Part shown: piece after piece, positions 11,342-31,224 of the stretch | Numbering within the stretch: position 1 is the stretch's first letter | Layout of the letters: each line of letters opens with the position of its first letter | IMG/VR virus record: IMGVR_UViG_3300025369_000036 | Span: 1-36,124 of that record | Origin: a virus | Strand: one strand, 5' to 3' | Length of the DNA: 36,124 bases | Program-made: the position numbers and the translations under genes | Notes under the pieces: model-generated | Seen by the model: the letters and a program-made list of their open reading frames with translations, nothing else | The model's database searches: none | What the model was told of the DNA's origin: nothing

Positions 11342-13237
11342 ATGTCTAGTATAAAAATTTCACAACTGCCAGTCAGTTCAAATGTAAATCCTAATCCGGT
11401 AGACTCGGTATTTCCGATGACGGATACAACTCTTGGAGAAACATTCCAGTTGAGTGCCTTGGCATTAGGAAATTCATTGTATGCCAATAACGAATTAGTT
11501 GTTGGTACTGGTGGCGTACAATTACCAAATGCTGTTGCTCAGTTTACAGGCATTTCTGGCGGTTATACACAAGTTAATGAACAAAATTTAAATGCCAATG
11601 GTACTGCCGATTATATTGTAACTGCTGATATCGGTTCAGATGTCAATTATTATATTGATATGGGTATTACTAACTCTAACTATAGTAACGTATCACCATT
11701 CAATTCATTAGGCACATCTATTGAACCACTATCTGGTTATTTGTATGTACAAGGTAATGCCACATATGCCAACTCAGGTAACTTGGTTATCGGTACAGTA
11801 AATCCAGGTACAGAGACTCGACTACTTGCTGGTGGTGTTGGTATGGATAATGTGATTGTTAAAATTAAACCGGGTGAAGTTAAGGTTCGTGCTAACGTAG
11901 TATTGAATGTGGCTAATGTTGTTTTAGTTAATACAGTTACATTCTATGATGGTACTAAACAGACTACTGCTGGAGTTTCCAATGCTTATGCAACGGCTGC
12001 TTTTGCTCAGGCCAATTCAGCGGGTGCCAATACAGTATATCAAACAGGTGTTAACACAACTCAGAATACTTGGATTCAGGCAGCATGGAATGAAGCCAAT
12101 ACATCATTACAAAATACTGCAAGTATTATTATACCAGGTAATGTGACAATCAATGGTTCAACCACATTAAATGCCAACACATATTATAATGGCAATACGA
12201 TACAATATGGTTCCGTAACAACCTACGGAAACTTGATTACTATTGGTACGATGACTACTACTGGTAATGTTATAACCACAGGCAACTTAACAGCAACAGG
12301 ACCAGTAACATTCAACGGACAATTTGTTAATAATGGCACCACTTATAATAATGGCACCACATATCTAAACGGAAATACCACAACAACTGGTACTTTCATT
12401 ATGACGAACTCAACGTTCGCTGCAAACTCATATGCAATTGGTATTATTGGTTCATCTAGTGGTCAAACTCAACCACCAGTTGCAGATGGTACAATGTTAC
12501 AGATTACAGGTAAAGATGGTGTCAACTCTAAATTGATTGTTGATGCCGCAGGTACTGGTGTATATTCATTGTTCAATGGTCGCTCAATGCGTGGTCTTGC
12601 AAATACACCATCAGCATTATTATCGGGTGATATTCTTGTTAAATTTGGTGGTAACGGATATGGTGCAACCGGTTTTGGTTCTGGTGTAAATTCTGGTGGC
12701 GCATATATGGAATATATGGCTGCTGAAAATTACACCGATACACAAAAAGGTACTAATATTTTATTTGGTGCTACACCAATAGGTTCAAATACAATTGCAA
12801 ACGTATTGACTTTGACAGGTACCACAGCAATATTTGCAAACAATGTAAGTATTGCAAACAATTCAATTGCAAACACAAAAATTGCAAACACTTATGTATA
12901 TGGTTCTGCAACAGCCAACTCAGGTGTAACTCAAATAACAAGTAGAACTACTGGCGTTACAGCAAACGGTATTACGGGTACAATTATTGGTTATTCTGCA
13001 AGTGCTTTCCAACATGGAACAGGTTATGTATTCACAGTCAACAACAGTTCTGTACTACATACAACTGATATTGTTTTTGTTTCTATACAAAATAGTAACT
13101 GTCCAGTACCTCAAGTATCTGTGGCCAATACTAGAGTAGGAAGTTTTGATATATGTGTGTTCAACGGTTCTGGTGCAGGTAACGATGCGGCTTATACAAT
13201 GAACGTGAATTTTGGTATCATTAGAGTTGGATCATAA
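11342..13237 (+). CDS. Fibre-like virion protein
   Basis: This 631-residue protein lies between the gp7-position gene and gp8. The start, MSSIKISQLPVSSNVNPNPV, resembles baseplate-attachment ends of fibre proteins. Residues 85-180 carry a domain with ADYIVTADIGSDVNYYIDMG and SGNLVIGTVNPGTETRLLAGG, seen in many phage fibres and again in the fibre at 33608. Residues 250-360 are short Asn/Gly/Thr repeats (TINGSTTLNANTYYNGNT, then NNGTTYNNGTTYLNGNT) typical of a beta-helical shaft. Near 502-518 three pentads read IANNS, IANTK, IANTY. The C-terminus (about 540-631) is a compact beta domain ending FGIIRVGS, probably the tip. Its place inside the wedge operon suggests a short tail fibre or wedge-bound spike; exact role unknown. 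Confidence 0.6.
   Translation: MSSIKISQLPVSSNVNPNPVDSVFPMTDTTLGETFQLSALALGNSLYANNELVVGTGGVQLPNAVAQFTGISGGYTQVNEQNLNANGTADYIVTADIGSDVNYYIDMGITNSNYSNVSPFNSLGTSIEPLSGYLYVQGNATYANSGNLVIGTVNPGTETRLLAGGVGMDNVIVKIKPGEVKVRANVVLNVANVVLVNTVTFYDGTKQTTAGVSNAYATAAFAQANSAGANTVYQTGVNTTQNTWIQAAWNEANTSLQNTASIIIPGNVTINGSTTLNANTYYNGNTIQYGSVTTYGNLITIGTMTTTGNVITTGNLTATGPVTFNGQFVNNGTTYNNGTTYLNGNTTTTGTFIMTNSTFAANSYAIGIIGSSSGQTQPPVADGTMLQITGKDGVNSKLIVDAAGTGVYSLFNGRSMRGLANTPSALLSGDILVKFGGNGYGATGFGSGVNSGGAYMEYMAAENYTDTQKGTNILFGATPIGSNTIANVLTLTGTTAIFANNVSIANNSIANTKIANTYVYGSATANSGVTQITSRTTGVTANGITGTIIGYSASAFQHGTGYVFTVNNSSVLHTTDIVFVSIQNSNCPVPQVSVANTRVGSFDICVFNGSGAGNDAAYTMNVNFGIIRVGS
12329..12360 (+). repeat. 18-base direct repeat in the fibre shaft
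   Basis: AATAATGGCACCAC occurs at 12329-12342 and again at 12347-12360, a period of 18 bases or six codons. It encodes the repeated NNGTTY units of the shaft, so it reflects protein repeats and a possible site for slippage. Confidence 0.75.
12851..12895 (+). repeat. Three 15-base repeats encoding IANxx pentads
   Basis: ATTGCAAACA starts at 12851, 12866 and 12881, exactly 15 bases apart, within the fibre-like gene. The units encode IANNS, IANTK and IANTY. The same nine bases, ATTGCAAAC, also occur once at about 12793 in the same frame. A trimeric stalk with five-residue periodicity is plausible. Confidence 0.75.
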
Positions 13238-14631: not shown

Positions 14632-17600
14632 ATGATAAATTACAATGTAGATCCATACAATGATGATTTCGACCCAACGAAAAATTATCATAGGATTCTA
14701 TTCAAACCAGGTTATGCCGTTCAGGCGAGAGAGTTAACACAATCTCAGACTATATTACAGAATCAGATTTCTCAGTTTGCTTCTGCTATCTATTCTCAGA
14801 ATACTCCAGTTTCTGGTGGTAAAGTTACAACCAATTTGAATTGTAGTTATATCAAACTAAATTCATTGTATAATGGTTCATCTGTTGTAGCATACAATTT
14901 TTTAAATACAACTATTACCGATTCTACTGGCACAATCATTGCTCGTGTTATTGCCACAGCAGAAGCAACTGGTAATGCCACAACTGCTGGCGATCCACCA
15001 ACATTGATTGTTACATACACATCAGGTGGTCAATTCACCGATGGTATGACCATCTATATTCAAACATCTACATCCAAGACATCAGCAGCCACAACTATTG
15101 GTACATCAGGCGGTACAACTTGTACTGGCCTATCTTCTGTAGCTTCTATCTCCGATGGTGTGTTCTATGTTGTAAACGGTTACGACCAGATTATTGAAGC
15201 AAACGGAACAACTGTACCATATACTATTGGTAACTTCGTTAACGTATCTGCTCAGACAGTTATCTTAGACAAGTATGACAATACACCTTCATTACGTATT
15301 GGTCTAGAAATTGCCGAGTTAACTATTACAAGTAGTCAAGATACTTCTTTATTGGATCCAGCTGCAGGTGCTTCCAACTATCAGGCGCCAGGTGCTGACC
15401 GTTATCAAATCAACCTAACATTGGTAACATTACCATTGACATTGGGTAATGATGACCAGTTCATTGAGTTACTAAGAATCACAAACGGTTCTATTGTTAA
15501 ACAAACAGATACAACCGTCTACTCAACGATTGATGATTACTTTGCTAAGCGTGATTATGAAACTAACGGTGACTACATCGTTAATGATTTCACATTGACA
15601 CCATCAGCAAACTCATTAGGTATTAATGCTAGTTATGACCTAGGCATTGGTCCTGGTGTGGCATATGTCCACGGTTATAGAATTGAAAATCAATCTCAGA
15701 CCACTCTAACAAGCGACAGAGCAAGAACAATCAACACAATCAATAACAATGCTGCCTTCGTAGACTACGGCAACTTCTTTGTTGTTGATACAATGAGTGG
15801 TGTGTTTGATGTTGGTACAATGCCTTCTGTTGACTTACATTGTGTACCATCAACAGGTATTGTTTCTACAAATACAGCAACATATAATTCTACTCTAGTT
15901 GGTACTGGTTTGATCCGTGACTTGACATACGTTACAGGTACTGGTTCAAATACAAAATCATATATCTACAACGCTTTTGTTTCTGATATTTCTACTAGAA
16001 CAATTTCTGGTGCCACAGCATCAGCGACACCAAGTACACTAACAGTTACTGATACTACTGCTCTTCTTTCCGCTACGGCTAATGCTTATTACGGCATCGT
16101 TCTTACTGTAACAACAGGTGCTTTGGTAGACAAGAGAAACATTATCGGTTACACAGTTTCTGGTTCAACCAAAGTATTTACAGTTGATAATCCATTTACA
16201 CTCACACCAACATCATCTTCAACATGGCAACTAGGATTTGCTGTTAATGATATTGATTCAATTGTACAAACAATAAGTAGCAGTAACTTTACTTTAACAG
16301 CAAATACAAATATCAATGCTGCTGAAGGTAAAGTTAATGGTGTTCCTATCGGATCAACCATCTATAATACTACAGCTTATCCTGAGTTGTTATTCCAGAT
16401 TGGTTACCCATACGTAGCACAAGTTGCTAACACAAGTTACTTCTCTACCAGAATCTATCGTGGTAAAACATTCACAGGTTCTACACTAACATTGGTGTCA
16501 ACATCAGGTAACAGTAGTAACCCATTAAGATTTGAAGGTACTGGTACATTGTCAGCAGCCGCTGCGATGCAGAACTTTATTGTTATCAATACATCAACGG
16601 GTAATGTATTAGACTTTACAAGTGCTGGTAATACTGTTTCCGTTTCTGCTGACCACACAACAGCAACATTCACATCAGCAGCATATTCAGGTATGACTGT
16701 TGACGTTATTGCTGTAGTTCAAGTACAAAATGCTGACTCAACTAACTATGTACTAAAGTCTAAAAACTTAGTACTAGGTAATACAGCATATGTTGCTAGT
16801 TCATTTGCTTCTATTTCAGGTTCTACCACAACATATAATGCCACATCTGGTCAGACATTAATACCTCATGCAACTATAGTTTCTAATAGTAATGGTGGTA
16901 AGATGCCATTGTATGTTAACGATGTAAGAAACATTGTTAAGATTATTGACTCTGGTAATCCATCAACTAACCCAACAGGTTTGGTTGGTAGTTATGCCGA
17001 CATTACAAACAACTTCACATTTGATAACGGTCAACGTGATAGTTATTACGACTTTGGTTATATCAGTCTATTGCCTGGTGCTCCAATACCTACAGGTAAT
17101 ATTCTTGTGGTCTACAATTACTATTCACATACACAGGCATCTTCTGGTGACGGTTATTTCAGTCTACAATCATATCAATCCGCTAACTCAACCTATGGTG
17201 GTGTATCAACATCACCTGAGAACTATGCCAAGATTGCTCAGTACACATCTAAAGGCGGTACAATCTATCGTTTGACCGATGTGGTTGACTTTAGACCTTG
17301 CCGTAAGAATGGCCAAACAGGTTATCTATGGGAATATTCTCAGACACAAACAAGTACCAATGACATTGGTATTCTATTACCTAACAACCTATCTAACTTT
17401 ACAAGTAACTACTCATACTATTTGGGTAGACAAGATAGATTGGTGTTGACCAAAGATAAGAGTTTCCAAATTGTTGAAGGTACTCCATCAGTATCTCCAT
17501 CATTGCCAGCACAACCAGATGGTTCATTGTTGATTGCTAACTTATTGTTAGATCCATATACAGCATTTGTACCAGGTGAAGGACCTGCTGGTCAAACTTC

Positions 17601-20124
17601 TAACCTATCTGTTAACAAAGTACTACACAAGCGTTGGGCTAAATCTGATATTACAGACTTAGAAACTCGTGTTAACAATCTAGAGTATTATACATCTCTA
17701 AACATCTTAGAACAGAACGCTCAGTCTCTACAAGTTGCTGACGTTAACGGTTTGAATCGTTTCAAGAACGGTATTCTAGTTGATGACTTCAGTTCATTTG
17801 CTACGGCAGATACTGGTAATCCAGACTATGCTGCTAACATCAACGTTAGAAAAAATGAAATGACAGCGTTGAGTTTTGTAGACAACTTCCAGTTACAAAA
17901 CCCTGCCGTTATGGCCAGTTTGGGTACATTAACTAATACAAATACCTATGCTATCAATAGTATTCAAGGTACACAAACAAACATCTTTACATTACCATAC
18001 ACAACTGCTAACGTAGTTGTACAGAGTTTGGCAAGTTCTACGGTATCTGCCAACCCATTTGCTGTGGTGATACAACAAGGTGTTGCTCAATTGAATCCTC
18101 CTATGGACAATTGGGTAGATAACTCACAAGCACCTGCGATTCTGATTACAGATCCAAGTATGCAAGTGTACCAGCAAACCGGTGGTGTTAACTTAATTAA
18201 CTCAAGTGACTTCCAAACTATCCCTGGTACACAGAGTACGATATCTTCTTCTACTCAAGTTGTTGGCCACGGTATCAATGCAAGTCCATACGGTTATGTT
18301 GGTTACACAGCAACAACTACCTCAACATATGGTAGTCAGATTCAGAATGTAACATCTTCTGCATACAATCCAGTATCATCTACATTTGGTACAAACAATG
18401 GTTACATAACAAACATTGCTATTCTACCATACATTAGACCACAAGAAGTTATTGTACAGGCAGAAGGTCTATTGGTTAACACCAAAGTATCTACATGGTT
18501 TGACGGAACATCTGTAGACCAATACATGAGAGCACCAAACACAATCGAATTGACTGGTGTTACTGGTAAATTTAACAAAGATGATGTTGTTGGTTTCTAC
18601 CTAGACAACTTCTTCTATCCAATTGCTCGTGTTATTAATGTATATAATTATCCAAATGGTACACAGGCTCGTTTGTATGTTGCTGATATCTTAGGAGCAC
18701 CAAACACAGTTGGTACAACCACATTAACCAACGGTACATTCAATTCTGCTGGTGATTATGTTGTTGGTTCTTCTACTGCTTCAGGTACTGTACCAGCAGG
18801 TGCTATCTCTAATCTATACCAGTCAGGTGAAATCTCTGGTGTTGGTGGTGGTTATTCAAATACATTTAATGCCAACATTACAACTCAGTTGTACATGACA
18901 CCTGTTACACAAGGTTACTGTTCATTCTTAAACCAATACGGTGTATGGGGTGATCCAAATAACAGCACAACATACAACGCAGCATTCCCTGTTCCATTAA
19001 CAACCGGTGCTACATATACAATAGCATTATCATGTTCAGGTTCTGCTTCTGTAACTCAGAATGGTACAACACTTGTATCAAGTTCTAGTTCTACAACCGT
19101 ATCAACTGCCACATTTACGGCAGCAAGTTCTAGTCCAACTATTGCTTGGAATGCTACAAGTTCTGGTACAACACAGTCAGCAATTGCTGTTACTATTACC
19201 GATTCATCTGGTAATATTGTGTTCTCATCTGTTTCTCCACCAGAATTAAATTATATCAACGGTGGTACAGAGATTAATATGTATCTTGGTGGTGCCTTCT
19301 TTGAAGGTGTTACACAAGTATACCTAGGACCACAATCATCTTCAGCAACTAACTACTATGTTGGTTCTACAATCAGTATTACATCTAAGTATGTTTATGG
19401 ATTGACTGCTGCAGCAACATATGTTCCACCTCCTCCTGCTCCAACAGGTGGTGGCGGTGGCGGTTGTGGTGGATGTTTCACTGCCAATACATTAGTTACA
19501 ATGGCTGACGGTACAACTAAGTCAATCTGTGATGTTAAAGTTGGTGACAAAGTAAAGAACTATAATGGCACTAAAGTCAATACAGTTCAGTACATTGAAT
19601 ACTTACCAGATACATTGTTGAAAGCCTTGTACACACCAACTCCTGATTTTGCTCCATTTGCCACAGTCAACCACCCATTATACATTGGTGATGTTCTAAG
19701 TAAAGTAGACCAAGACATTGATTATCCATGGTTGAAGATTAAAGGTACAATCAATCCATTTGCTGTACAAGAAGCAACTGGTCAAATGGTATACAACTTA
19801 TGGTTAGACGGTGACCACACATACATCGTAAACGGTTTCGGCACAACATCTATCATTGATGATGGTGGTATGTTGAGAAAAGGTGTTGAACAAGGTGTTC
19901 TGACACATGAAGAAGCCATGAACCTAGTCGTTAGATATGCTTCTGAAGGCAGAGATGTAATGTATGGTAGTTATTTGTTTATCAAATTGTTTGGTAAGAT
20001 TAACTCTAAGACATTAAACAAAGTGATGGCCAAGTACTTGAAGAATGATGACCACCCAACAGCACAATCGGTTGTTAAAGGTATATTCAAAGTCGTTGGC
20101 AAGATAGCGAATCTGGTTGCTTAA
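14632..20124 (+). CDS. Giant DUF4815-type baseplate/fibre-base protein with C-terminal Hint domain
   Basis: The largest gene here, 1830 residues. The N-terminus has YHRILFKPGYAVQARELTQS (about 19-38), the hallmark of the DUF4815 structural family of T4-like phages; the family continues with VVDFRPCRKN (near 885) and EYYTSLNILEQNAQSL (about 1020), then GLNRFKNGILVDDF (about 1040). Residues 1265-1440 resemble the family's distal part (IRPQEVIVQAEGLLVNTKV, WFDG). After a Ser/Thr-rich beta domain (1430-1540) and a Pro/Gly linker comes a Hint domain: Cys1615 in GGCFTANTLVTMADG, T1678-x-x-H1681 in FATVNHPLY, and the closing strand WLDGDHTYIVNG (1724-1735). The usual terminal His-Asn is missing; GTTSIIDDGG and a helical tail of about 85 residues follow. 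Thus N-terminal thioester chemistry is possible, but not ordinary protein splicing. The virion role is inferred from family and position. Confidence 0.8.
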   Translation: MINYNVDPYNDDFDPTKNYHRILFKPGYAVQARELTQSQTILQNQISQFASAIYSQNTPVSGGKVTTNLNCSYIKLNSLYNGSSVVAYNFLNTTITDSTGTIIARVIATAEATGNATTAGDPPTLIVTYTSGGQFTDGMTIYIQTSTSKTSAATTIGTSGGTTCTGLSSVASISDGVFYVVNGYDQIIEANGTTVPYTIGNFVNVSAQTVILDKYDNTPSLRIGLEIAELTITSSQDTSLLDPAAGASNYQAPGADRYQINLTLVTLPLTLGNDDQFIELLRITNGSIVKQTDTTVYSTIDDYFAKRDYETNGDYIVNDFTLTPSANSLGINASYDLGIGPGVAYVHGYRIENQSQTTLTSDRARTINTINNNAAFVDYGNFFVVDTMSGVFDVGTMPSVDLHCVPSTGIVSTNTATYNSTLVGTGLIRDLTYVTGTGSNTKSYIYNAFVSDISTRTISGATASATPSTLTVTDTTALLSATANAYYGIVLTVTTGALVDKRNIIGYTVSGSTKVFTVDNPFTLTPTSSSTWQLGFAVNDIDSIVQTISSSNFTLTANTNINAAEGKVNGVPIGSTIYNTTAYPELLFQIGYPYVAQVANTSYFSTRIYRGKTFTGSTLTLVSTSGNSSNPLRFEGTGTLSAAAAMQNFIVINTSTGNVLDFTSAGNTVSVSADHTTATFTSAAYSGMTVDVIAVVQVQNADSTNYVLKSKNLVLGNTAYVASSFASISGSTTTYNATSGQTLIPHATIVSNSNGGKMPLYVNDVRNIVKIIDSGNPSTNPTGLVGSYADITNNFTFDNGQRDSYYDFGYISLLPGAPIPTGNILVVYNYYSHTQASSGDGYFSLQSYQSANSTYGGVSTSPENYAKIAQYTSKGGTIYRLTDVVDFRPCRKNGQTGYLWEYSQTQTSTNDIGILLPNNLSNFTSNYSYYLGRQDRLVLTKDKSFQIVEGTPSVSPSLPAQPDGSLLIANLLLDPYTAFVPGEGPAGQTSNLSVNKVLHKRWAKSDITDLETRVNNLEYYTSLNILEQNAQSLQVADVNGLNRFKNGILVDDFSSFATADTGNPDYAANINVRKNEMTALSFVDNFQLQNPAVMASLGTLTNTNTYAINSIQGTQTNIFTLPYTTANVVVQSLASSTVSANPFAVVIQQGVAQLNPPMDNWVDNSQAPAILITDPSMQVYQQTGGVNLINSSDFQTIPGTQSTISSSTQVVGHGINASPYGYVGYTATTTSTYGSQIQNVTSSAYNPVSSTFGTNNGYITNIAILPYIRPQEVIVQAEGLLVNTKVSTWFDGTSVDQYMRAPNTIELTGVTGKFNKDDVVGFYLDNFFYPIARVINVYNYPNGTQARLYVADILGAPNTVGTTTLTNGTFNSAGDYVVGSSTASGTVPAGAISNLYQSGEISGVGGGYSNTFNANITTQLYMTPVTQGYCSFLNQYGVWGDPNNSTTYNAAFPVPLTTGATYTIALSCSGSASVTQNGTTLVSSSSSTTVSTATFTAASSSPTIAWNATSSGTTQSAIAVTITDSSGNIVFSSVSPPELNYINGGTEINMYLGGAFFEGVTQVYLGPQSSSATNYYVGSTISITSKYVYGLTAAATYVPPPPAPTGGGGGGCGGCFTANTLVTMADGTTKSICDVKVGDKVKNYNGTKVNTVQYIEYLPDTLLKALYTPTPDFAPFATVNHPLYIGDVLSKVDQDIDYPWLKIKGTINPFAVQEATGQMVYNLWLDGDHTYIVNGFGTTSIIDDGGMLRKGVEQGVLTHEEAMNLVVRYASEGRDVMYGSYLFIKLFGKINSKTLNKVMAKYLKNDDHPTAQSVVKGIFKVVGKIANLVA

Positions 20125-20155: not shown

Positions 20156-22321
20156 ATGACAACTTTAACTTATTCTAGTATCTACCATTATACGGCAAAC
20201 ATTGTTGCCTATAATGCAACCACAAAGATTGCTACTCTGGACCAACCAGTTAACATTTCTTTGGGTGTTAATAGTACTTATGGTGATGTGAACTCAAGTT
20301 ATACAATTCAAGGTAAACTAACCAATGTATCACAGGCCATCAGTCAAGGTGGTCCTGTTGCTCTTTCTACTGATGAGGCAGGTAACTTTGTAGGTATCTT
20401 CAATGTACCACCAAATACTTTCCAGTCCGGTCAAAGAGTGTTCCGTATTGACAACAGAACAGTACCAACAGACCAAACTACTGCTACAACATATGCTGAA
20501 GCAACATTCACAGCATCTGGTCTAGCCACTACATCACAACAATTAGATTTTGCTCCATCTATTGACTCATCTTCACAATCATTTACACAAGTCAATCAGA
20601 CAGCACAACATTTAATCAGTACAATCACAACATATTCACCATATGATCCTGTGGCACAGACATTTATTATTTCTAAAGATAATTATCCAAATGGTGTGTT
20701 TCTAAATTCTGTTAAGTTGTTCTTTGAATCTGCACCAACAGGCAACGAACCAATCACAGTATCAATTATACCAACATTGAATGGTTATCCTAACGGTAAT
20801 GCTTTAGATTATTCTACTGTAACATTAAATGCCAACCAAGTGGTAACATCTTCTACACCACATTATTTGGATGCCAACACATATACCGAATTCATGTTCA
20901 AGGCTCCTGTATATGTACAGGCAGGAATCTTATATGCCATTCTAGTACAGGCAAAATCACCTGACTATAACCTATACATCGGACAACAAAACCAGATTGC
21001 AGTACCGTCTACTGCTAAGTCTCTGCCTTCCGATCCAAACCCAACCAATCCAACAAAGATTGGTGCTGCTCCATATATCGGTGCTCTATTCGAATCACAG
21101 AACTCTATTACCTGGACTGCCGACCAGACCAAGGACTTGATGTTCGTTATCGACCAATGTGTGTTCAACGTAGGTTCGGCAACAGTACCATTCGTAGTAC
21201 CACAAGGTTTACCATACAGAAAACTAGGTACACAGGATATCCGTCACAAGTTGGATGCCAATACCGTTTCTAACGTATATGGTAACTATGCACCAACTAC
21301 ATTAGTGGATGCTATCAACGTATCTACAACAGACTTTGTTCCATCAGGTACAAAAGTTGGTTATGCTTATGCAACTACATTGAGCAATGGTAATCAACAA
21401 ACATCACAACAAATCATTACACCAGGTAAGTTAGGTACTCCAACACCTGAGAATGTATACTTGAATGATGGTCTTGGTGAACGTGTATTGATTCCACAAT
21501 CTAACAACTCATTCTCATTGTTCGCTACATTGTCCACAACAGACAAGAACGTATCACCTATTATTGCTGACGATGGTGTATCATTGTATTCTATCCGTTA
21601 CTTGATTAATAATATGGGCATCGGTAACAATGTAATCTCTGTTACAAACGGTGGTTATGGTTATAGTAACGGCAACACAACAGTAACTATTTCTTCACCA
21701 GATATTGGTACAGATTTACCTGTATTAGGATTCTCAGCGAACGCTAACGGTGCTATTACTTCTGTATACACTAACTATCCAGGTTCTGGTTACTTGACTA
21801 CACCTACAATTAATGTATACGATTCTACAACCAGAACAACTGGTTCAGCTAATGCTGTTATCTCTGTACACGGTGAAACATCACCAACAGGCGGTAACTC
21901 ATACGCTAAATACTATACTAAGAAGGTTGTATTGGCAGCAGGTCAAGATTCTGGTGACATGAGAGTGTTCCATACATCATACAGACCAGTTGGTACAAAC
22001 ATCTATGTGTACTACAAGATTCTAAGTTCACAAGATACATCTACATTTGAATCTGGTTCTTGGCAGTTGATGACAACTCTAAGTAATCCAAATGTATACT
22101 CAACATCTCGTAACGATTTGATTGACTTTGAGTGTGCTCCAGGTATCTTCAATAGTAATGCAGCAAACAATAATATTTCATACACTAATGCAAGTGGTCA
22201 AACATTCAATAATTATATTCAATTTGCTGTCAAAGTTGTTCTTGCTTCTACTGACCCAACCAATGTACCGTTTGTGACATCATTACAAGCACTAGCATTA
22301 CCAGCAGGAACAGGTATCTAA
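20156..22321 (+). CDS. Structural protein resembling the distal half of the DUF4815 fibre-base family
   Basis: This 721-residue protein has segments that, in other phages as I remember them, follow the DUF4815 region in the same polypeptide: NFVGIFNVPPNTFQSGQRVFR (about 82-102, the FxIPxxxFRTGxRxFRL pattern), YDPVAQTFIIS (162-172), GVFLNSVKLFFES (180-192), and SQNSITWTADQTKDLMFVI (about 316-334). A Gly-rich module with TNGGYGYSNGNTTVTISS lies near 497-575, as in gp6 and gp8. Residues 580-721 contain FHTSYRPVGTNIYVYYKIL and RNDLIDFECAPGIF, a common baseplate-fibre C-terminal domain. It probably assembles with the 1830-residue protein encoded upstream. A promoter motif and 31-base gap separate the two. 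Confidence 0.7.
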   Translation: MTTLTYSSIYHYTANIVAYNATTKIATLDQPVNISLGVNSTYGDVNSSYTIQGKLTNVSQAISQGGPVALSTDEAGNFVGIFNVPPNTFQSGQRVFRIDNRTVPTDQTTATTYAEATFTASGLATTSQQLDFAPSIDSSSQSFTQVNQTAQHLISTITTYSPYDPVAQTFIISKDNYPNGVFLNSVKLFFESAPTGNEPITVSIIPTLNGYPNGNALDYSTVTLNANQVVTSSTPHYLDANTYTEFMFKAPVYVQAGILYAILVQAKSPDYNLYIGQQNQIAVPSTAKSLPSDPNPTNPTKIGAAPYIGALFESQNSITWTADQTKDLMFVIDQCVFNVGSATVPFVVPQGLPYRKLGTQDIRHKLDANTVSNVYGNYAPTTLVDAINVSTTDFVPSGTKVGYAYATTLSNGNQQTSQQIITPGKLGTPTPENVYLNDGLGERVLIPQSNNSFSLFATLSTTDKNVSPIIADDGVSLYSIRYLINNMGIGNNVISVTNGGYGYSNGNTTVTISSPDIGTDLPVLGFSANANGAITSVYTNYPGSGYLTTPTINVYDSTTRTTGSANAVISVHGETSPTGGNSYAKYYTKKVVLAAGQDSGDMRVFHTSYRPVGTNIYVYYKILSSQDTSTFESGSWQLMTTLSNPNVYSTSRNDLIDFECAPGIFNSNAANNNISYTNASGQTFNNYIQFAVKVVLASTDPTNVPFVTSLQALALPAGTGI

Positions 22322-24322: not shown

Positions 24323-25393
24323 ATGGCACTAACATATGACGGCACAGCCGGTATAACATTTAATGATGGCAGTCAGATTAATACGGCAAGCCAACTTGGT
24401 ATGCGTAACCGTATTATCAATGGTAACATGGCAATTGACCAAAGAAATTCTGGTGCTCAAATTACGGCAAATGATGTCAGTTATCCAGTAGATAGATTTA
24501 GATTTAACAATTCACAATCTTCAAAATTGGTAGCACAACAGATGAATTCTGCCAACACATCTGCTTCAAATTATGAATCAGGTTCGGCTCCAATTGGTTT
24601 TACGAATTCATTAAAAATAACATCTTCTTCTGCATATTCAATTTCATCTTCTGATTATTTTGCTATATGCCAATTTATTGAAGGTTATAATATTGCCGAT
24701 TTTAATTGGGGAACAACAAATGCCTCAACAGTTACTTTAAGTTTTTGGGTAAAAAGTTCTTTAACTGGTTTGTTCGGTGGTACTATTTTAAATAGTGCTG
24801 CAAATCGTGCTTATCCATTTACATATACAATCAATTCAGCAAACACTTGGCAATATATAACCATTACAATTCCTGGTGAAACAACAGGAACTTGGTTGAG
24901 AGACAATGGCCAAGGATTATTATTGTTCTTAGGTCTTGGAGTAGGTTCGTCAGGAAGTGGAACACCAGGTTCATGGGCAAGTGGTAGTATTTATCGTTCC
25001 GCTACTGGTGCTACATCGTTAGTTGGTACAAATGCCGCCACATTCTACATCACAGGTGTTCAATTAGAAAAAGGCGCTGCAGCCACACCATTTGATTACA
25101 GGCCTTATGGTACAGAGTTTATGTTATGCCAGAGGTATTATGAGACAAGTGGTTTAATTTCTTGGTCTGGATCAACTAATAACGGGTCAACATATTATAT
25201 GACAATAAATTTTGCAACACCTAAAAGAGCAGCTCCAACAGTTGTTACTTCTACAGCTGATACATCTGGATTTGCAGGCGCTCCTACGGCTGGAAATATA
25301 TCCACATCAACAGCAGAAGGAACTAACGTGGCAAATGCAAGTGTAAACCCAGGTAGATTTCGTTTCACATTTACAGCATCAATAGAATTATAA
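24323..25393 (+). CDS. Tail fibre adhesin with CQRYY-type C-terminal domain
   Basis: This 356-residue protein has a short N-terminus (ALTYDGTAGITFNDGSQINT) and then a domain from about residue 27 that is shared by five genes in the array: RNRIINGNMAIDQRNSG (28-44), PVDRFRF, PIGFTNSLKITSSS, TLSFWVKSSLTG (142-153), ANTWQYITITIPG, a GATFYITGVQLExG-like block, and YGTEFMLCQRYYETSG near 265-280. It ends FTASIEL. Such domains lie at the tips of many phage tail fibres and are presumed to bind surface glycans. The following 69-residue gene starts after one base. The coupled GGAG site seen in the other pairs is absent here. Confidence 0.75.
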   Translation: MALTYDGTAGITFNDGSQINTASQLGMRNRIINGNMAIDQRNSGAQITANDVSYPVDRFRFNNSQSSKLVAQQMNSANTSASNYESGSAPIGFTNSLKITSSSAYSISSSDYFAICQFIEGYNIADFNWGTTNASTVTLSFWVKSSLTGLFGGTILNSAANRAYPFTYTINSANTWQYITITIPGETTGTWLRDNGQGLLLFLGLGVGSSGSGTPGSWASGSIYRSATGATSLVGTNAATFYITGVQLEKGAAATPFDYRPYGTEFMLCQRYYETSGLISWSGSTNNGSTYYMTINFATPKRAAPTVVTSTADTSGFAGAPTAGNISTSTAEGTNVANASVNPGRFRFTFTASIEL

Positions 25394-25394
25394 A

Positions 25395-25604
25395 ATGTAT
25401 ACATTACTTCCACAAGATTTAATAACAAACGCCCCAAAAACTGTTCAAAGAAGTTTGGACAGAGCATCTATTCCATTTGACTCAAACAACACAGACTACC
25501 AACAATTCAAAAAAGACCTAGCTAACGGTGCTGAACTCAAAGATGCTACAGGTAATGTAATGACTTCACAAGCAGTCACAGAATTTTTACAGGGATTACA
25601 ATAA
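25395..25604 (+). CDS. Small fibre-partner protein (long type)
   Basis: The 69-residue product has a variable front and the core ASIPFDSNNTDYQQFKKDLA (about 29-48), then LKDATGNVMT and an end EFLQGLQ. The IPFDxxNxDYQxF core is shared by the small genes at 27434, 28815, 30260 and 35230, each placed directly behind a CQRYY-type fibre. It resembles small tail-assembly-chaperone-like proteins that follow tail fibre genes in many phages (for example those with NTDYQxYLxWLxEGNTPxP). A chaperone or tip cofactor for the fibre upstream is inferred from linkage. Its stop overlaps the next ATG (TAATG). Confidence 0.7.
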   Translation: MYTLLPQDLITNAPKTVQRSLDRASIPFDSNNTDYQQFKKDLANGAELKDATGNVMTSQAVTEFLQGLQ

Positions 25605-26200
25605 TGAGTATTGTATTAGATGGTTCTGCCGGAATAACTTTTCCTTCAGGTAATACACAAAGCAATGCAGCTCTTATTACTTCTGGTGGTACAATTGCTG
25701 GCAATTTAGCACTTGGTGGTAACTTAACATTCAATGCAGGCACTAACGGTATCACATTTAATAATACTGGTGCTACTGTAAATAGTTCGTTGAATGATTA
25801 CGAGACAGGTACTTGGACACCTGCTTGTTATTTTAATGGTTCTGCATCTAGCGGACAAGCTGGTGCTTTTAATGGTTTTTATACAAAGGTTGGAAATTCG
25901 GTTGTAGCAACCGGAAAAATTGATTTAACAAATTTAGGAAGTGGAACAGGTAATTTTACTATTGTAGGTCTACCATTTTCGGCAAATTCAAATTCAAACT
26001 TTAGAACAATTGGAACAATGTTTTGGAGTTCAACATCCTCGTCTCTTATAACAATAGTTCCATTACTTTCCGCTGGTTCAACTTCTATAGAAATTTTAGG
26101 ATCAACATCCGCAACAAATGGTTTATCAGATTTAACAAATTCTAATTTAAGCAATAGCACTTCTTTAAGGTTTGCTATAAGTTATATTACATCTTTCTAA
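25604..26200 (+). CDS. Tail adhesin with NDYETGTWTP-type tip
   Basis: This 198-residue protein has a front resembling that of the previous fibre (VLDGSAGITFPSGNTQSNA), a short shaft of Gly/Asn repeats (GGTIAGNLALGGNLTFNAG) and a tip domain beginning SLNDYETGTWTP at about 63, continuing with FYTKVGNSVVATGKIDLTN and VGLPFSANSN. It ends SYITSF. The NDYEtGTWTP domain is widespread at the end of phage and prophage fibre proteins; the same class occurs at 31649 and 32400. No small partner gene follows. Its ATG overlaps the stop of the partner gene upstream, so it is co-translated with the first fibre pair. Confidence 0.7.
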   Translation: MSIVLDGSAGITFPSGNTQSNAALITSGGTIAGNLALGGNLTFNAGTNGITFNNTGATVNSSLNDYETGTWTPACYFNGSASSGQAGAFNGFYTKVGNSVVATGKIDLTNLGSGTGNFTIVGLPFSANSNSNFRTIGTMFWSSTSSSLITIVPLLSAGSTSIEILGSTSATNGLSDLTNSNLSNSTSLRFAISYITSF

Positions 26201-26232
26201 TTCATACATAATGACATCATTAGGCTCACGAA

Positions 26233-26239
26233 CTAAATA
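26233..26239 (+). promoter_or_regulatory. Late promoter-like motif CTAAATA
   Basis: CTAAATA, preceded by A (ACTAAATA), lies five bases before the ATG at 26245. With T4 late spacing the first transcribed base would be the A of that ATG. It differs from TATAAATA in two of eight bases. Confidence 0.3.
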
Positions 26240-26244
26240 ATACC

Positions 26245-27432
26245 ATGCCAATCATAACAGCCGTATCATCACCAACCACAGCATTAATCACCAGCACATC
26301 TGATGCTTCTGGTAATATTTCGTTTGTTACTGCCGGTTCTACGGCAATGACACTTGATACAAATCAGAATACTACACATACAGGTTCGGTTTCAGCACCA
26401 AATACATTCAGTTATAAAAATCGTATTATCAATGGTGATTTCAGAATCAGTCAATATAATGCCAACAGTTCAGTTACTGCTGTTCATAACACATATGCAA
26501 TTGATAGGTTTGTTCCTTTCTTAGATTCTTCAGGTTATTTTAATATTGGCCAGAACTTAAATTCGGCAAATCCACCAGCAGGATTTACAAACTATCTAGG
26601 GGTACAATCCACTTCTACATACGCACAATCTGGTGGTAACAGATATGGTATTAGAATGAAGATGGAAGGATATTCTATTGCCGATTTGGCATGGGGTACC
26701 GGTTCAGCCAAAGCAGTTACATTAAGTTTTTGGGCGCAATCAAGTCAAACAGGTAATTATGGTGGATGTATTCAACAAGGTACTGGTGGATACAACTACT
26801 TATTTTCATACAATATTACTTCTGCAAATACATGGCAATTCTTTACAATTGTAATTCCCGGTCCAACAGGTGGTGGTACATGGACAACCAACAGTAATAC
26901 TGGATGGACACTATGGTTAGATGTTGGTTCAGGTACATCGAATCAAGGTACTGCATACACTTGGGGAAATACAGGTTTAGCACCAACAGGTTCTGCAACT
27001 ATTCTGAATGCAACCAATACAACATTATATTGGACAGGTTTTCAATTAGAAAAAGGTAACATTGCAACACCATTTGAATATTTGGAATACGGACATCAAT
27101 TGAGAATGTGTCAAAGATATTACTGTACAGGTTTTAGTTATCCAGTAATTATTGCTGGCTCAACCACATCTATACCAGTGGTTAAATATCCTGTTGAAAT
27201 GAGAGCAGGTCCTTCCGTAAGTTACACTTCTGGTTTATATTCATGGAATCCTGTAAGTTCGAATCAACCCATAAACTCAGTTAGTTCAATACCTTCCGAT
27301 GCTGCAGGAACAAGCGGTACTCGTTTTAATACTACAACTTCTGGTATGTCTTCTGTAACGGCAGGTATGGCAGGATTTACATATCAAGCAGTAACAGGTG
27401 TCGGTAGTTTCAATTTCTCAGCGGAGCTATAA
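26245..27432 (+). CDS. Tail fibre adhesin with CQRYY-type C-terminal domain
   Basis: This 395-residue protein has a front of about 55 residues different from its neighbours (VSSPTTALITSTSDASGNIS), then SAPNTFSYKNRIINGDFRIS (about 50-69), the start of the shared domain. Later landmarks are PPAGFTNYLGVQSTS, TLSFWAQSSQTGNYGG, ANTWQFFTIVIPGP, YWTGFQLEKGNIATPFEYLE and LRMCQRYYCTG (about 288-298). It ends FNFSAEL. The codons for Ala-Glu (GCGGAG) provide GGAG at 27423-27426, seven bases before the ATG of the partner gene at 27434. A fibre tip binding cell-surface sugar is inferred. Confidence 0.75.
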   Translation: MPIITAVSSPTTALITSTSDASGNISFVTAGSTAMTLDTNQNTTHTGSVSAPNTFSYKNRIINGDFRISQYNANSSVTAVHNTYAIDRFVPFLDSSGYFNIGQNLNSANPPAGFTNYLGVQSTSTYAQSGGNRYGIRMKMEGYSIADLAWGTGSAKAVTLSFWAQSSQTGNYGGCIQQGTGGYNYLFSYNITSANTWQFFTIVIPGPTGGGTWTTNSNTGWTLWLDVGSGTSNQGTAYTWGNTGLAPTGSATILNATNTTLYWTGFQLEKGNIATPFEYLEYGHQLRMCQRYYCTGFSYPVIIAGSTTSIPVVKYPVEMRAGPSVSYTSGLYSWNPVSSNQPINSVSSIPSDAAGTSGTRFNTTTSGMSSVTAGMAGFTYQAVTGVGSFNFSAEL

Positions 27433-27433
27433 A

Positions 27434-27598
27434 ATGTTCACATATCAGTTATGTCCAAAAGATAAAGATGGAAAAGACCAAGGATGTGTTAAAAGGTCAG
27501 ATGGTTGGGTAATTCCTTTTCATCCTGATAATACGATGTATCAAGAATACTTGAAGTGGGTTGCAGAAGGTAATACGCCTTCTCCCGCTGACGAATAA
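27434..27598 (+). CDS. Small fibre-partner protein (short type)
   Basis: A 54-residue protein starting at the ATG one base after the fibre stop; an ATG further upstream in the same frame lies inside the fibre gene and is unlikely to be used, because the GGAG site is correctly placed for 27434. The sequence has CVKRSDGWVIPFHPDN (about 18-33), then MYQEYLKWVAEGNTPSPADE at the end, the pattern of small tail-chaperone-like proteins found behind fibre genes in many phages. It lacks the C-terminal DAxGN extension seen in the long type. Confidence 0.7.
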   Translation: MFTYQLCPKDKDGKDQGCVKRSDGWVIPFHPDNTMYQEYLKWVAEGNTPSPADE

Positions 27599-27601
27599 AT
27601 A
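27594..27601 (+). promoter_or_regulatory. Late promoter-like motif AATAAATA
   Basis: AATAAATA overlaps the stop codon of the partner gene and lies 23 bases before the ATG at 27625. It is one base from the T4 late consensus. It would drive the two fibre-partner pairs 27625-30466. Confidence 0.4.
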
Positions 27602-27624
27602 AACAAATAACATAGAGAAATTCA

Positions 27625-28812
27625 ATGAGTTTACAACAGATTACCGCTAACGATATTCTAAGCTTACCTGCAAACACGGTAAGTAATACTCAGTTTACGG
27701 CCGGTGCGGTTGAGAATTATATGACATCGACTGGCGTACCATTCAGCTACAGAAACATTATTCATAATGGTGAGATGTTGATTGACCAACATTTCAATGG
27801 TGCAAATACCGTAATGACATCTTCTATGGCCGTAGATAGATGGGGCGGAAATTGTTATAGTGGTACAACTGCAAACACACTTTATTCACAACAAGTAGTT
27901 GATGCACCGACAGGTTTTTACAATTCATTAAAAATTACATGTACTTCAGGTGTAGCTACTTCTTCTAATGCTAACGGTAGAAGAAATCTTTCGCAATATA
28001 TTGAAGGTGTATTCTCAAATCATCTGAATTGGGGCACAACATATGCAAGACCAATAACAATGAGTTTTTGGGCTAAAAGTTCATTAACTGGTGCTCATGC
28101 TGTTAGTTTGCAATCAAATAATCAAGCATATTCATATGCTACAACTTATACAATTTCAACTGCCAATACTTGGCAATATTTTGTATTAAATATTCCTGCA
28201 CCACCATCTGCATCTTCTGGAAATTGGACTGCAAATAATATAGCAAACATATTAACATTTTGGGATTTAGGCCAAGGTTCTTCTATTACTGCTTCATCAT
28301 CAGGTCAATTAAATTCATGGCAAGCAGCAGACTTACGTGGTTATGCTAATGCAGTTCATATTGCTGATACAACTGGTGCTACATGGCAGATTACTGGTGT
28401 TCAAATGGAACCAGGTACTACTGCAACACCATTTGAACATAGACCATATTCATTAGAGTTTGCTATTTGTCAAAGATATTTTGAACAATCGTATGATTAT
28501 GGTGTTCTTCCTGGAACAGCTACAACCGCAGGACAGATTGGTAGTTCAGGTATCCAAGGAGGAAATACAACAGGTGAAATAGATGCTGGGTTTAATTTTA
28601 AAGTTACTAAGAGAGCTTCTCCATCTTTAAATTATTGGGACACCGCAGGTAACTCAGGTAAATGTAATAGAACGCAAATGGGTGTATCGCAAACAAACAA
28701 TCAATCTGTTGCAACCAATTATTCAGGAACAAATAATGTTGTTGTATATTCAGGTTCTGGTGTAAGTGCTGGTCAAATATACTTCCACTATACTGCTTCT
28801 GCGGAGATATAA
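27625..28812 (+). CDS. Tail fibre adhesin with CQRYF-type C-terminal domain
   Basis: This 395-residue protein begins SLQQITANDILSLPANTVSN. The shared tip domain starts at about 45 with PFSYRNIIHNGEMLIDQHFN, a more diverged version, and continues with VDRWGGN, PTGFYNSLKITCTSG, MSFWAKSSLTGAH, ANTWQYFVLNIP, TWQITGVQMEPGTTATPFEH and LEFAICQRYFEQS. The end is FHYTASAEI, with GGAG at 28803-28806 eight bases before the partner ATG. The internal sequence WDLGQGSSI also occurs in the fibre at 33608, suggesting these two are the closest pair in the array. Confidence 0.75.
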   Translation: MSLQQITANDILSLPANTVSNTQFTAGAVENYMTSTGVPFSYRNIIHNGEMLIDQHFNGANTVMTSSMAVDRWGGNCYSGTTANTLYSQQVVDAPTGFYNSLKITCTSGVATSSNANGRRNLSQYIEGVFSNHLNWGTTYARPITMSFWAKSSLTGAHAVSLQSNNQAYSYATTYTISTANTWQYFVLNIPAPPSASSGNWTANNIANILTFWDLGQGSSITASSSGQLNSWQAADLRGYANAVHIADTTGATWQITGVQMEPGTTATPFEHRPYSLEFAICQRYFEQSYDYGVLPGTATTAGQIGSSGIQGGNTTGEIDAGFNFKVTKRASPSLNYWDTAGNSGKCNRTQMGVSQTNNQSVATNYSGTNNVVVYSGSGVSAGQIYFHYTASAEI

Positions 28813-28814
28813 TC

Positions 28815-28967
28815 ATGTACGAAATTTACACATCACCAGTTGGCGAACAATACATATTAAGATTAGAAGATAACGCACACATTCCAATGGTTGAAGGTAA
28901 TATGGATTACCAAAAATATTTAAAGTGGGTTAGTGAAGGTAATACTGCTAACACAATACAGGGATAA
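28815..28967 (+). CDS. Small fibre-partner protein (short type, 50 residues)
   Basis: This very short gene starts two bases after the fibre stop and is supported by the GGAG site eight bases upstream and by its likeness to the other partners. The protein reads MYEIYTSPVGEQYILRLED, then NAHIPMVEGNMDYQKYLKW and VSEGNTANTIQG. The IP-x4-N-x-DYQ-x-Y core is kept although the usual PFDPDN is changed to PMVEGN. It ends three bases before the next fibre ATG at 28971. Confidence 0.75.
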   Translation: MYEIYTSPVGEQYILRLEDNAHIPMVEGNMDYQKYLKWVSEGNTANTIQG

Positions 28968-28970
28968 TAA

Positions 28971-30260
28971 ATGAGTTTAACACAAGTACAAACTGGTATG
29001 ATTTCTGGAGTACCTATTCAGGTCTCTACGAATGGTGCTATCACAACCGTAAGTTCTAATAATGCTTCAGCCATTACACTTGATGGTGCACAGAACGCTA
29101 CGTTTACTAATGCGGTTAAGACAAGTACAATTACTACAACTGCTGGAAATAATGGTGCTTTGGCAGTAAATGCCAGCACAACATTTAATAATAATATTTC
29201 AGCACCAAACACATTCGGTTTTAAGAACCGTATTATTAATGGTAATATGGCAATCGACCAAAGAAATAGTGGATCACTTATAAATCCGGCAGTTAATGGT
29301 TCTTATTGTGTAGATAGATGGACAACAAGAACCAGCCAAACCACATATTATAAAATACAACAAAATGCAGGTTCGGTAACACCACCTCCAGGGTTTTCAA
29401 ATTATCTAGGAGTTACATCATTAAATTCATCATCTTTAGGATCTACTGATTATGCTTTTATTGCTCAATACATTGAAGGTTTAAATTGTCAAGATTTAAA
29501 TTGGGGAACTTCAAACGCTAAAACCATAACACTTTCTTTTTGGGTGCAATCATCTTTAACAGGAACTTTTGGTGGTGCAATTAGAAATTACCAAAATAGT
29601 TCTAATGGTTGTTATGTGTTTTCTTATAACATTCCAGTCTCAAATACTTGGACTTATGTTTCAGTTACTATTCCAGGACCAACGACAGGAGGTTCTTCTC
29701 AATGGCCAACAACCAACTCTGGATTTTTAGAGCTTGATTTTACTTTTGGTGTTGGAGCTACATATTCTGGTTCACCAGGTTCTTGGTTATTAAGCAATAA
29801 TATTGCTCCTACCGGAGCAGTATCCGTAGTCGGTACATCAGGCGCAACCTTCTACATTACAGGTGTTCAACTAGAAGTAGGAACTCAAGCAACATCTTTT
29901 GATTATCGTCCTTATGGTACTGAGTTGGCTTTGTGTCAGAGGTATTTTACTCAGTTAACAGCAGGTAGTGGAGCTTATACTGGTTTTGGAGCTGGTGTTT
30001 GGGGTGGAACTTCACAAGGAAATATATATTTAAAATATCCAACATCTATGAGAACCTCTCCTACATTTAATTATAGTAATGTATGCGTTAGCGATGGTGT
30101 TAATAATTTAAGCGTTACTTCTGTTACCAATTTCTTTGGTGGATCAGATAGTGGTCTGGTTACATTAGCTGTTAGTGGAAGTACAACGCAATATCGAGGC
30201 GCTTATTTATCTGCAAATAATAACACTTCTGCATATATTAATTTTTCAGCGGAGCTGTAA
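28971..30260 (+). CDS. Tail fibre adhesin with CQRYF-type C-terminal domain
   Basis: This 429-residue protein has a longer front (about 80 residues, with QVQTGMISGVPIQVSTNG and a short Asn/Thr shaft), then NTFGFKNRIINGNMAIDQRN (near 79-98). The shared domain continues with VDRWTTR, PPGFSNYLGVTSLN, LSFWVQSSLTGTFGG, NTWTYVSVTIPGP, GATFYITGVQLEVG and YGTELALCQRYFTQL. It ends YINFSAEL; GGAG at 30251-30254 lies five bases before the overlapping partner ATG (TAATG). The inner part is nearly the same as in the 24323 gene (a run of SLTGxFGG, FYITGVQLE, FDYRPYGTE), so recombination between them is possible. Confidence 0.75.
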   Translation: MSLTQVQTGMISGVPIQVSTNGAITTVSSNNASAITLDGAQNATFTNAVKTSTITTTAGNNGALAVNASTTFNNNISAPNTFGFKNRIINGNMAIDQRNSGSLINPAVNGSYCVDRWTTRTSQTTYYKIQQNAGSVTPPPGFSNYLGVTSLNSSSLGSTDYAFIAQYIEGLNCQDLNWGTSNAKTITLSFWVQSSLTGTFGGAIRNYQNSSNGCYVFSYNIPVSNTWTYVSVTIPGPTTGGSSQWPTTNSGFLELDFTFGVGATYSGSPGSWLLSNNIAPTGAVSVVGTSGATFYITGVQLEVGTQATSFDYRPYGTELALCQRYFTQLTAGSGAYTGFGAGVWGGTSQGNIYLKYPTSMRTSPTFNYSNVCVSDGVNNLSVTSVTNFFGGSDSGLVTLAVSGSTTQYRGAYLSANNNTSAYINFSAEL

Positions 30261-30492: not shown

Positions 30493-31224
30493 ATGACTTC
30501 CGTGGCTCATTTATATCGTATAGAGAACCTGAAAACAGGTGAATACTATATTGGTAAACACAATGGAATTACACAGAAGAAAACTCAAAGCAATAAATTG
30601 TATTGGGGTTCTGGTGATAGAATAAAAAGACAAATTAGGAAGTATGGTGTAGAGAATTTTAAATATGAAGTTTTGGTAATTGCTGAAGAAGATTACATAT
30701 ATGACCTAGAGAAAAGGTATGTAACTGTGGATCTTATTGAGAGTGATGAGAAATGTTTGAATTTGGTGGGTGGTGGATTTGGTCCTAGTGGATTAACAGA
30801 ACAAACCAGAAATAAACTCAGGTTATCTACCCTTAACGAACGTAAAAAAAATCCAGAAAAATGGAAAGAAGCTGCAAAAAAAGCAGGCCTCAATAAAAGA
30901 GGAATAATATTTTCCGAAGAACACAGAAAAAAAATCAGCGATGCTGGTAAAGGTAAAGATCCTTGGAATAAAGGCAAAACAAATACTATATCAGAAGAAG
31001 GTTTAAAAGTTTTAAAAGAAAAATGTAAAAAACTTACTTCTAATATGGTTTGGGTGAATAATGGATTACAAAATAAAAGACCACAAAAAGAAGATGTTCA
31101 AAAATATCTAAATGATGGATGGGTTGAAGGTAGATTGCGTGATTATATTGATGATAAATATAAAGAACAATGTAGACAAAGAAGTTTTAAGCGTTGGCAA
31201 AAAACTAAGAATTCTGGAGAATAA
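30493..31224 (+). CDS. GIY-YIG homing endonuclease, Seg-like with NUMOD3 region
   Basis: This 243-residue protein has an N-terminal GIY-YIG nuclease domain: HLYRI at 6-10, EYYIGK at 17-22, YWGSGDRIKRQIRKYG at 37-52 (catalytic Arg within it) and the likely metal-binding Glu73 in DLEKRYV. Residues 98-165 hold NUMOD3-type DNA-binding repeats (GLTEQTRNKLRLS and FSEEHRKKISDAGKG, then PWNKGK). The C-terminus is Lys-rich. Free-standing enzymes of this type spread their own gene by cutting phage DNA that lacks it. The Lys/Glu-rich composition contrasts with the Thr/Asn/Gly-rich fibres around it. It lies between a late promoter and a fibre frame whose start codon it appears to have taken over. Confidence 0.9.
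   Translation: MTSVAHLYRIENLKTGEYYIGKHNGITQKKTQSNKLYWGSGDRIKRQIRKYGVENFKYEVLVIAEEDYIYDLEKRYVTVDLIESDEKCLNLVGGGFGPSGLTEQTRNKLRLSTLNERKKNPEKWKEAAKKAGLNKRGIIFSEEHRKKISDAGKGKDPWNKGKTNTISEEGLKVLKEKCKKLTSNMVWVNNGLQNKRPQKEDVQKYLNDGWVEGRLRDYIDDKYKEQCRQRSFKRWQKTKNSGE

Follow-up and report, generated by a model that had tools for sequence, protein, structure and literature searches.

What does a Hint domain do at the end of a phage baseplate protein? The question is raised by a viral DNA stretch of 36,124 nucleotides, here called the window (IMG/VR record IMGVR_UViG_3300025369_000036, positions 1 to 36,124). Self-cleaving Hint domains are found in inteins, in bacterial secreted proteins and in animal Hedgehog. 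As read from the sequence and from structural models, the Hint domain in the window probably acts as a C-terminal autoprocessing cap, which would free a baseplate chain of 1614 residues via Cys1615.

Split VrlC genes in the window

The window encodes the baseplate protein VrlC (DUF4815) in two genes, ORF1 and ORF2 (Table 1), which are separated by a stop codon and 31 bases. A single continuous VrlC polypeptide, as present in isolates, was not found in the window. Judged by its family matches, ORF1 covers just the N-half of a VrlC that is split in two, which the original prediction had not noticed, and the Hint domain ends this first gene. A second record of the same virus has an identical architecture, differing at 11 of 12,267 positions, and an assembly artefact is unlikely since the two records agree. 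In pelagimyophages and cyanomyophages, VrlC takes the place of T4 gp7, and it is associated with double-layered baseplates (PMC7029224). The homologue in phage A511, Gp106, forms pyramidal structures on the tail fibre that reorient on adsorption (PMC11406892).

Other genes were observed around the split VrlC. An ORF of 631 aa at 11342-13237, amid baseplate genes, has no PHROG match. Downstream of VrlC, five paralogous genes (24323-30260 and 33608-35227) match the C-terminal part of the tail fibre family phrog_4492. A GIY-YIG/NUMOD3 homing endonuclease is encoded amid these tail fibre paralogues, at 30493-31224.

Table 1. Features of the split VrlC locus and its Hint domain, with positions in the window
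Feature	Position	Strand	Evidence
ORF1, 1830 aa: N-half of the VrlC/DUF4815 baseplate protein with C-terminal Hint cap	14632..20124	+	DUF4815, E 1.6e-59; phrog_358 5-1258, E 1.8e-225
Conserved VrlC N-half, residues 2-1334 of ORF1	14635..18633	+	phrog_358 match; 33% identity to VrlC of Pelagibacter phage Mosig
Flexible linker PPPAPTGGGGGGCGG, residues 1600-1614, with Cys1612 at -3 (CGGC)	19429..19473	+	Sequence
Hint core, residues 1615-1740, without terminal His-Asn	19474..19851	+	Profile matches, AlphaFold2 model, fold comparison, family alignment
Cys1615, Hint Cys1, predicted nucleophile of the N-S acyl shift	19474..19476	+	Cys in 51/51 non-redundant relatives
Glu1656, Hint position 42, aligned with the Hedgehog general base D46 (D303)	19597..19599	+	50/51 relatives; alignment; role of D303 from PMC9163320
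Block-B motif Thr1678-Val-Asn-His1681	19663..19674	+	T and H in 51/51, N in 50/51
Asp1728 in the block-F-like YNLWxDGD motif	19813..19815	+	51/51 relatives
C-terminal helical extension, residues 1741-1830, up to the stop	19852..20121	+	Helices in both models; every distinct relative ends 0-40 aa past the profile match
ORF2, 721 aa: VrlC C-half as its own gene	20156..22321	+	phrog_358 1299-1638, E 1.3e-83; separate downstream C-half ORF in tail-type VrlC loci
DPVAQTF motif, ORF2 residue 164	20645..20665	+	In relatives, site of His-Asn-type Hint arrays or gene breaks

Sequence and predicted fold of the Hint domain

The end of ORF1 consists of PPPAPTGGGGGGCGG, Cys1615, FTANTLVTMADGTTKSICDVKVGDKV, T1678-V-N-H1681 and YNLWLDGDHTYIVNGFGTTSIIDDGG, in this order, with the remaining tail of about 90 residues and the stop codon behind them. 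The original prediction had described Cys1615 after a Gly-rich linker, LVTMADGTTKSICDVKVGDK, T1678-x-x-H1681, WLDGDHTYIVNG and a C-terminal tail, all of which are present as claimed. Its boundaries are likewise good, with a core of about residues 1615-1740 and a tail of about 1741-1830 (~90 residues). The Hint core ends in NGFGTTSIIDDGG, directly followed by the tail and the stop, and has no His-Asn and no +1 Cys, Ser or Thr. The HMM search that had been proposed as a check matched the Pfam families Hom_end_hint, Hint and Vint over the first 36-40 Hint residues, with E of about 1e-5 to 1e-4 and scores below the gathering scores. A profile built from the Hint-cap family finds BIL2 in the PDB, with E 1e-4.

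AlphaFold2, with an alignment of 12 relatives as input, gave a Hint model of twelve strands followed by five helices, with a mean pLDDT of 91.2 and a pTM of 0.88. The best PDB matches to this model in Foldseek/VIA-align 2 are Hint-fold proteins, with Z of 9.8-15.3 to 50 Hint-type entries. BIL2 of Tetrahymena BUBL1 reached Z 15.3 (2.8 A over 130 residues), followed by the gp41-1 intein (12.7), a BIL of Clostridium thermocellum (12.6), a Tetrahymena Vint domain (11.3) and Hedgehog 1at0 (11.0). On the predicted structure, residues 1615-1740 are a Hint domain, the fold that had been proposed from the motifs. The tail alone, predicted from 49 sequences, gave a helical bundle of moderate confidence (pLDDT 78, pTM 0.63). 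A fold search with this bundle against the PDB returned no usable match, an absence that is weak evidence.

A viral clade of C-terminal Hint domains

Profile scans of IMG/VR revealed 66 loci with Hint domains of this tail type, corresponding to 58 distinct sequences, of which 51 are under 90% mutual identity. The median pairwise identity among these 51 non-redundant members is 39%. Cys1, Thr64, His67, Trp86 and Asp114 are invariant (51/51), and Glu42 and Asn66 are present in 50/51; these counts are favoured for Thr64, Asn66, His67 and Asp114, which were partly in the collecting search patterns, and Cys1 and Glu42 were outside the patterns of the collecting scan (Cys1, though, was in an earlier one). 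Cys1615 and His1681, the two positions on whose conservation the original prediction had staked its case, are both kept in 51/51 non-redundant relatives. Fold and conservation together rule out a chance motif. When 48 His-Asn-ended Hints were included in a tree, all tail-type Hints fell on one side of a branch with a support of 100/100. The profile match always ends 0-40 residues before the stop in distinct full-length copies, and upstream of the Hint there is either a flexible Gly/Pro/Arg-rich linker or a hydrophobic stretch.

Among 84,980 bacterial and archaeal genomes scanned, a single match turned up, on a MAG contig of 3.96 kb. A bacterial origin was discarded, because this sole match is itself a phage VrlC locus. 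The search with tblastn of the window Hint and an array Hint against 50,697 phage records detected no Hint in VrlC; 1,485 of the records match the VrlC protein. Phage isolate records contained no relative of the window Hint except weak matches to inteins in other proteins. Since the single bacterial or archaeal match is a phage locus and isolate records showed no relatives, the Hint-cap clade seems to be confined to viruses, none of them cultured so far. The literature covered, mostly open-access papers, did not mention Hint domains in VrlC. Hint domains in single phage proteins have already been annotated, as uncultured Caudovirales Hint-domain proteins in BFVD are among the structural neighbours.

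Proteins that carry the Hint cap

Among the 58 distinct caps, 32 are fused to the VrlC N-half and 26 are located on other ORFs. Ten carriers were examined: two correspond to baseplate hub/tail lysozyme, three to a glycine-rich virion structural protein, two to PHROG 773 (phrog_773, annotated as major head protein), and three had no informative match. Four proteins of ~575-590 aa were observed to end in the same Hint cap, two of which match baseplate hub/tail lysozyme families. In five proteins of ~375 aa the cap comes after a hydrophobic stretch (e.g. WDIIPLLIVLAAIAE) and not after a polar linker.

The cap-bearing VrlC loci with both halves in view, which include some near-identical records, have the order N-half, cap, stop and separate C-half ORF in 31/31 cases, and none is fused. 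The association of the cap with a split gene has a P of 1e-19 in a Fisher test against the Hint-less survey described below, with related contigs taken as independent and the association being partly definitional, as the cap ends the ORF. The break in cap-bearing VrlC lies either ~170 residues before the DPLAQTF motif, which is the type of the window, or 6-20 residues before it.

Hint arrays and gene breaks in related VrlC proteins

Other relatives possess a second type of Hint, which ends in His-Asn and is found in 1-4 copies inside an unsplit VrlC, immediately before the DPLAQTF motif. At locus L040, the C-half matches residues 6-161 of the window ORF2, continues with four Hints, and then matches residues 163-721 of ORF2 directly; the array ends in ...LVHNK and DPLAQTF comes next. 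Eight further loci have one to four Hints at the same site, and some arrays include a few extra residues (e.g. HNKGG) ahead of DPLAQTF. Arrays and cap are also found together, with four array Hints plus the cap at locus L002 and six plus the cap at L039. Tandem arrays of three to six His-Asn-ended Hints in the baseplate protein, often with one Lys between them, were observed at six loci, including L002, L039 and L040.

All 40 array-type VrlC Hints possess Cys1 and the block-B motif T/SxxH, and 37 of the 40 end in His-Asn. The residue after His-Asn, scored in 36 of them, is Lys in 31, Arg in four and Ile in one, and is never Cys, Ser or Thr. Lys was rejected as an essential +1 nucleophile for the arrays, given the Arg at that place in 4/36. 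The Lys common to HNK-DPLAQTF and the M(T)KP-IAQTF starts may be a coincidence.

VrlC was surveyed in 80 loci chosen by the C-half only, which are the best 80 of at least 528. Among these best 80, 66 are unsplit and Hint-less, eight have a gene break at the array site, and one has a Hint array. The C-half at the eight gene breaks starts with M(T)KPIAQTF or similar. Split VrlC without Hint, in which the C-half begins at a DPLAQTF-like motif, was recorded at eight loci. By analogy with A-type BILs, the array Hints are expected to cleave and not to splice. The C-half released by such cleavage, beginning with (K)DPLAQTF, would be almost identical to a protein for which other phages have a separate gene. 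This sequence agreement supports, but does not prove, that the arrays cut VrlC at the DPLAQTF site.

Tandem Hints of the His-Asn type were also observed elsewhere, with three or four of them at the end of viral proteins of 913-925 aa (L072-L078). A terminase-like ORF with an inserted Hint ending in VHNC (L005-L009) probably contains an ordinary intein.

A natural CGGC motif before the Hint

Cys1612 is located at -3 to Cys1615 and makes a CGGC motif (window 19465-19476). A Cys within the six residues before Cys1 is present in 15/51 tail-type members, whereas the Cys content of these proteins would predict 2.4% (P 6e-13, with relatives counted as independent). An engineered CPGC at the equivalent place provides a split intein with a redox trap (PMC10772547). 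By analogy, a natural redox lock formed by Cys1612 and Cys1615 is an attractive guess.

Predicted autoprocessing and alternative readings

In the proposed mechanism, the peptide bond between Gly1614 and Cys1615 would, with the help of Thr1678 and His1681, become a thioester of Cys1615. Attack on this thioester by water or by an external nucleophile, for which Glu1656 is the probable activator, would set residues 1-1614 free from the Hint domain and the helices behind it. The acceptor might be determined by Glu1656 and the helical tail, through their choice of a nucleophile. With no His-Asn terminus and no +1 nucleophile, the domain is not expected to splice; both are absent clade-wide, and the original prediction was right to prefer cleavage or transfer over splicing. 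B-type BILs, which are Hints without the C-terminal motif, are known for N-side cleavage (PMC7765530).

Hedgehog uses C258, T326 and H329 for the N-S acyl shift and D303 (Hint D46) for the activation of cholesterol (PMC9163320). The D303A variant retains DTT cleavage, and replacement of D303 by Glu makes DTT cleavage faster, so Glu need not act exactly like Asp (PMC9163320). Glu42 of the cap family, Glu1656 in the window, is aligned with D46 in two independent alignments, and most array Hints have Arg or His there. By its aligned residues, the tail type holds the set of Hedgehog, namely nucleophile, TxxH, acidic base, no His-Asn and a C-terminal extension. We infer the activity of the Hint, its timing and its acceptor from sequence and models, and consider hydrolysis or attack by an undefined nucleophile more likely than transfer to a dedicated acceptor. 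The carrier viruses probably trim or chemically tag tail parts by Hedgehog-style chemistry. Pointing against a need for a Hint, most VrlC proteins work without one (66/80, among the best 80 of at least 528).

A special case of the autoprocessing cap, with an acceptor other than water, is a Hedgehog-like transfer. Here the helical tail would be an adduct-recognition region passing the thioester to a specific acceptor, such as a lipid, a glycan or a lysine of a fibre or host surface group, so that the chain is modified covalently. We consider this transfer a tentative possibility. It agrees with the order protein, linker, Hint, extension and stop, with Glu42 at the D46 position, which is occupied by Arg or His in His-Asn Hints, with a conserved tail in every complete member, and with the isopeptide bonds to lysine that the nearest fold, BIL2, forms (PMC8616854). 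However, the tail had no match to a known fold in the searches, no acceptor is known, and conservation is lower in the tail than in the Hint core (0.42 compared to 0.59). A covalent link of the baseplate chain to a partner, which the original prediction had raised, is possible, with some support from the alignment of Glu1656 with Asp46 and the conserved helical extension. The wider proposal is somewhat more doubtful still: that a virus-only, Hedgehog-like cap joins the C-termini of virion proteins covalently to a specific lipid, glycan or protein, giving modified or cross-linked tails, possibly timed by the CxxC motif.

The repeated use of the domain on virion proteins would also suit a catalytically inert structural or assembly module of the virion. 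This is improbable, as Cys1, TxxH and Glu42 are kept at 98-100% despite a median pairwise identity of 39%, and Cys1 is present in every full-length member.

Trans-ligation would rebuild one VrlC chain from the two genes, with the ORF2 product attacking the ORF1 thioester through its N-terminus or a lysine. The C-half gene lies immediately downstream in most cap-bearing VrlC loci, and unsplit VrlC exists. Nevertheless, proteins of the ORF2 type start with MTT, MKP or MLGF and have no conserved Cys or Ser, the same cap is also found on proteins without a second half, and the break occurs without a Hint in other phages; trans-ligation therefore seems quite unlikely. A split-intein C-part at the start of ORF2 was rejected, as residues 1-40 lack an intein C-motif and can be aligned inside the L040 protein.

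A remnant of a selfish intein is very unlikely: His-Asn-ended Hints are present in relatives of the same protein, but the tail type forms its own well-supported clade across several protein families, is always C-terminal, has intact active-site residues, and no homing endonuclease was seen inside the domain. A canonical (class 1) intein was discarded, as there is no His-Asn, no +1 nucleophile and no extein on both sides. A polymorphic-toxin pretoxin domain (PT-HINT) was discarded as well, since only the tail comes after the Hint.

Comparison with known systems

If the reading of the domain as an autoprocessing cap is true, a virus-specific Hint clade at the termini of virion proteins, including those of the baseplate, would represent a new route to mature or chemically tag a phage particle, and would place Hedgehog-type chemistry outside animals. 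Such a clade also bears on how large baseplate proteins came to be produced in one piece or in two. For protein engineering, ready-made parts are available in the natural CGGC motif and the His-Asn arrays.

ORF1 and ORF2 match the VrlC or A511 Gp106-type proteins (DUF4815, phrog_358), a family tied to the second layer of double-layered baseplates (PMC7029224, PMC11406892). In contrast to the window, no Hint was detected in isolate members, and the inspected proteins of Mosig and HTVC008M are single genes.

Similar to Hedgehog/Hog proteins (Drosophila Hh, PDB 1at0), the domain in the window has a Hint fold (Z 11.0), Cys1, TxxH, an acidic residue at the D46 position and no His-Asn end. As in Hedgehog, an extension is located C-terminal to the Hint, at the end of a protein whose N-part is the product. 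However, the window has Glu instead of Asp, the identity is ~16%, no sterol is expected in a phage, and the extension is helical and resembled no solved structure in the searches.

BIL2 of the Tetrahymena BUBL1 polyubiquitin locus (6y75, 6tmm) is the closest solved fold and also sits in a multi-part protein. Unlike the domain in the window, BIL2 has an Asn end, lies between two ubiquitin-like domains and makes isopeptide bonds. The arrays of the relatives resemble A-type BILs, with Cys1, T/SxxH, His-Asn (37/40) and then Lys or Arg instead of a +1 nucleophile. They differ in being arranged up to six in tandem before a cap, or as 1-4 copies at one fixed site of an unsplit baseplate protein, and the domain of the window itself has no His-Asn. 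B-type BILs share with it the intein motifs A and B, the missing C-terminal His-Asn and the expected N-terminal cleavage (PMC7765530), a likeness by motif definition. Unlike these, the domain in the window carries a helical tail and belongs to a viral clade that sits at the C-terminus of virion proteins.
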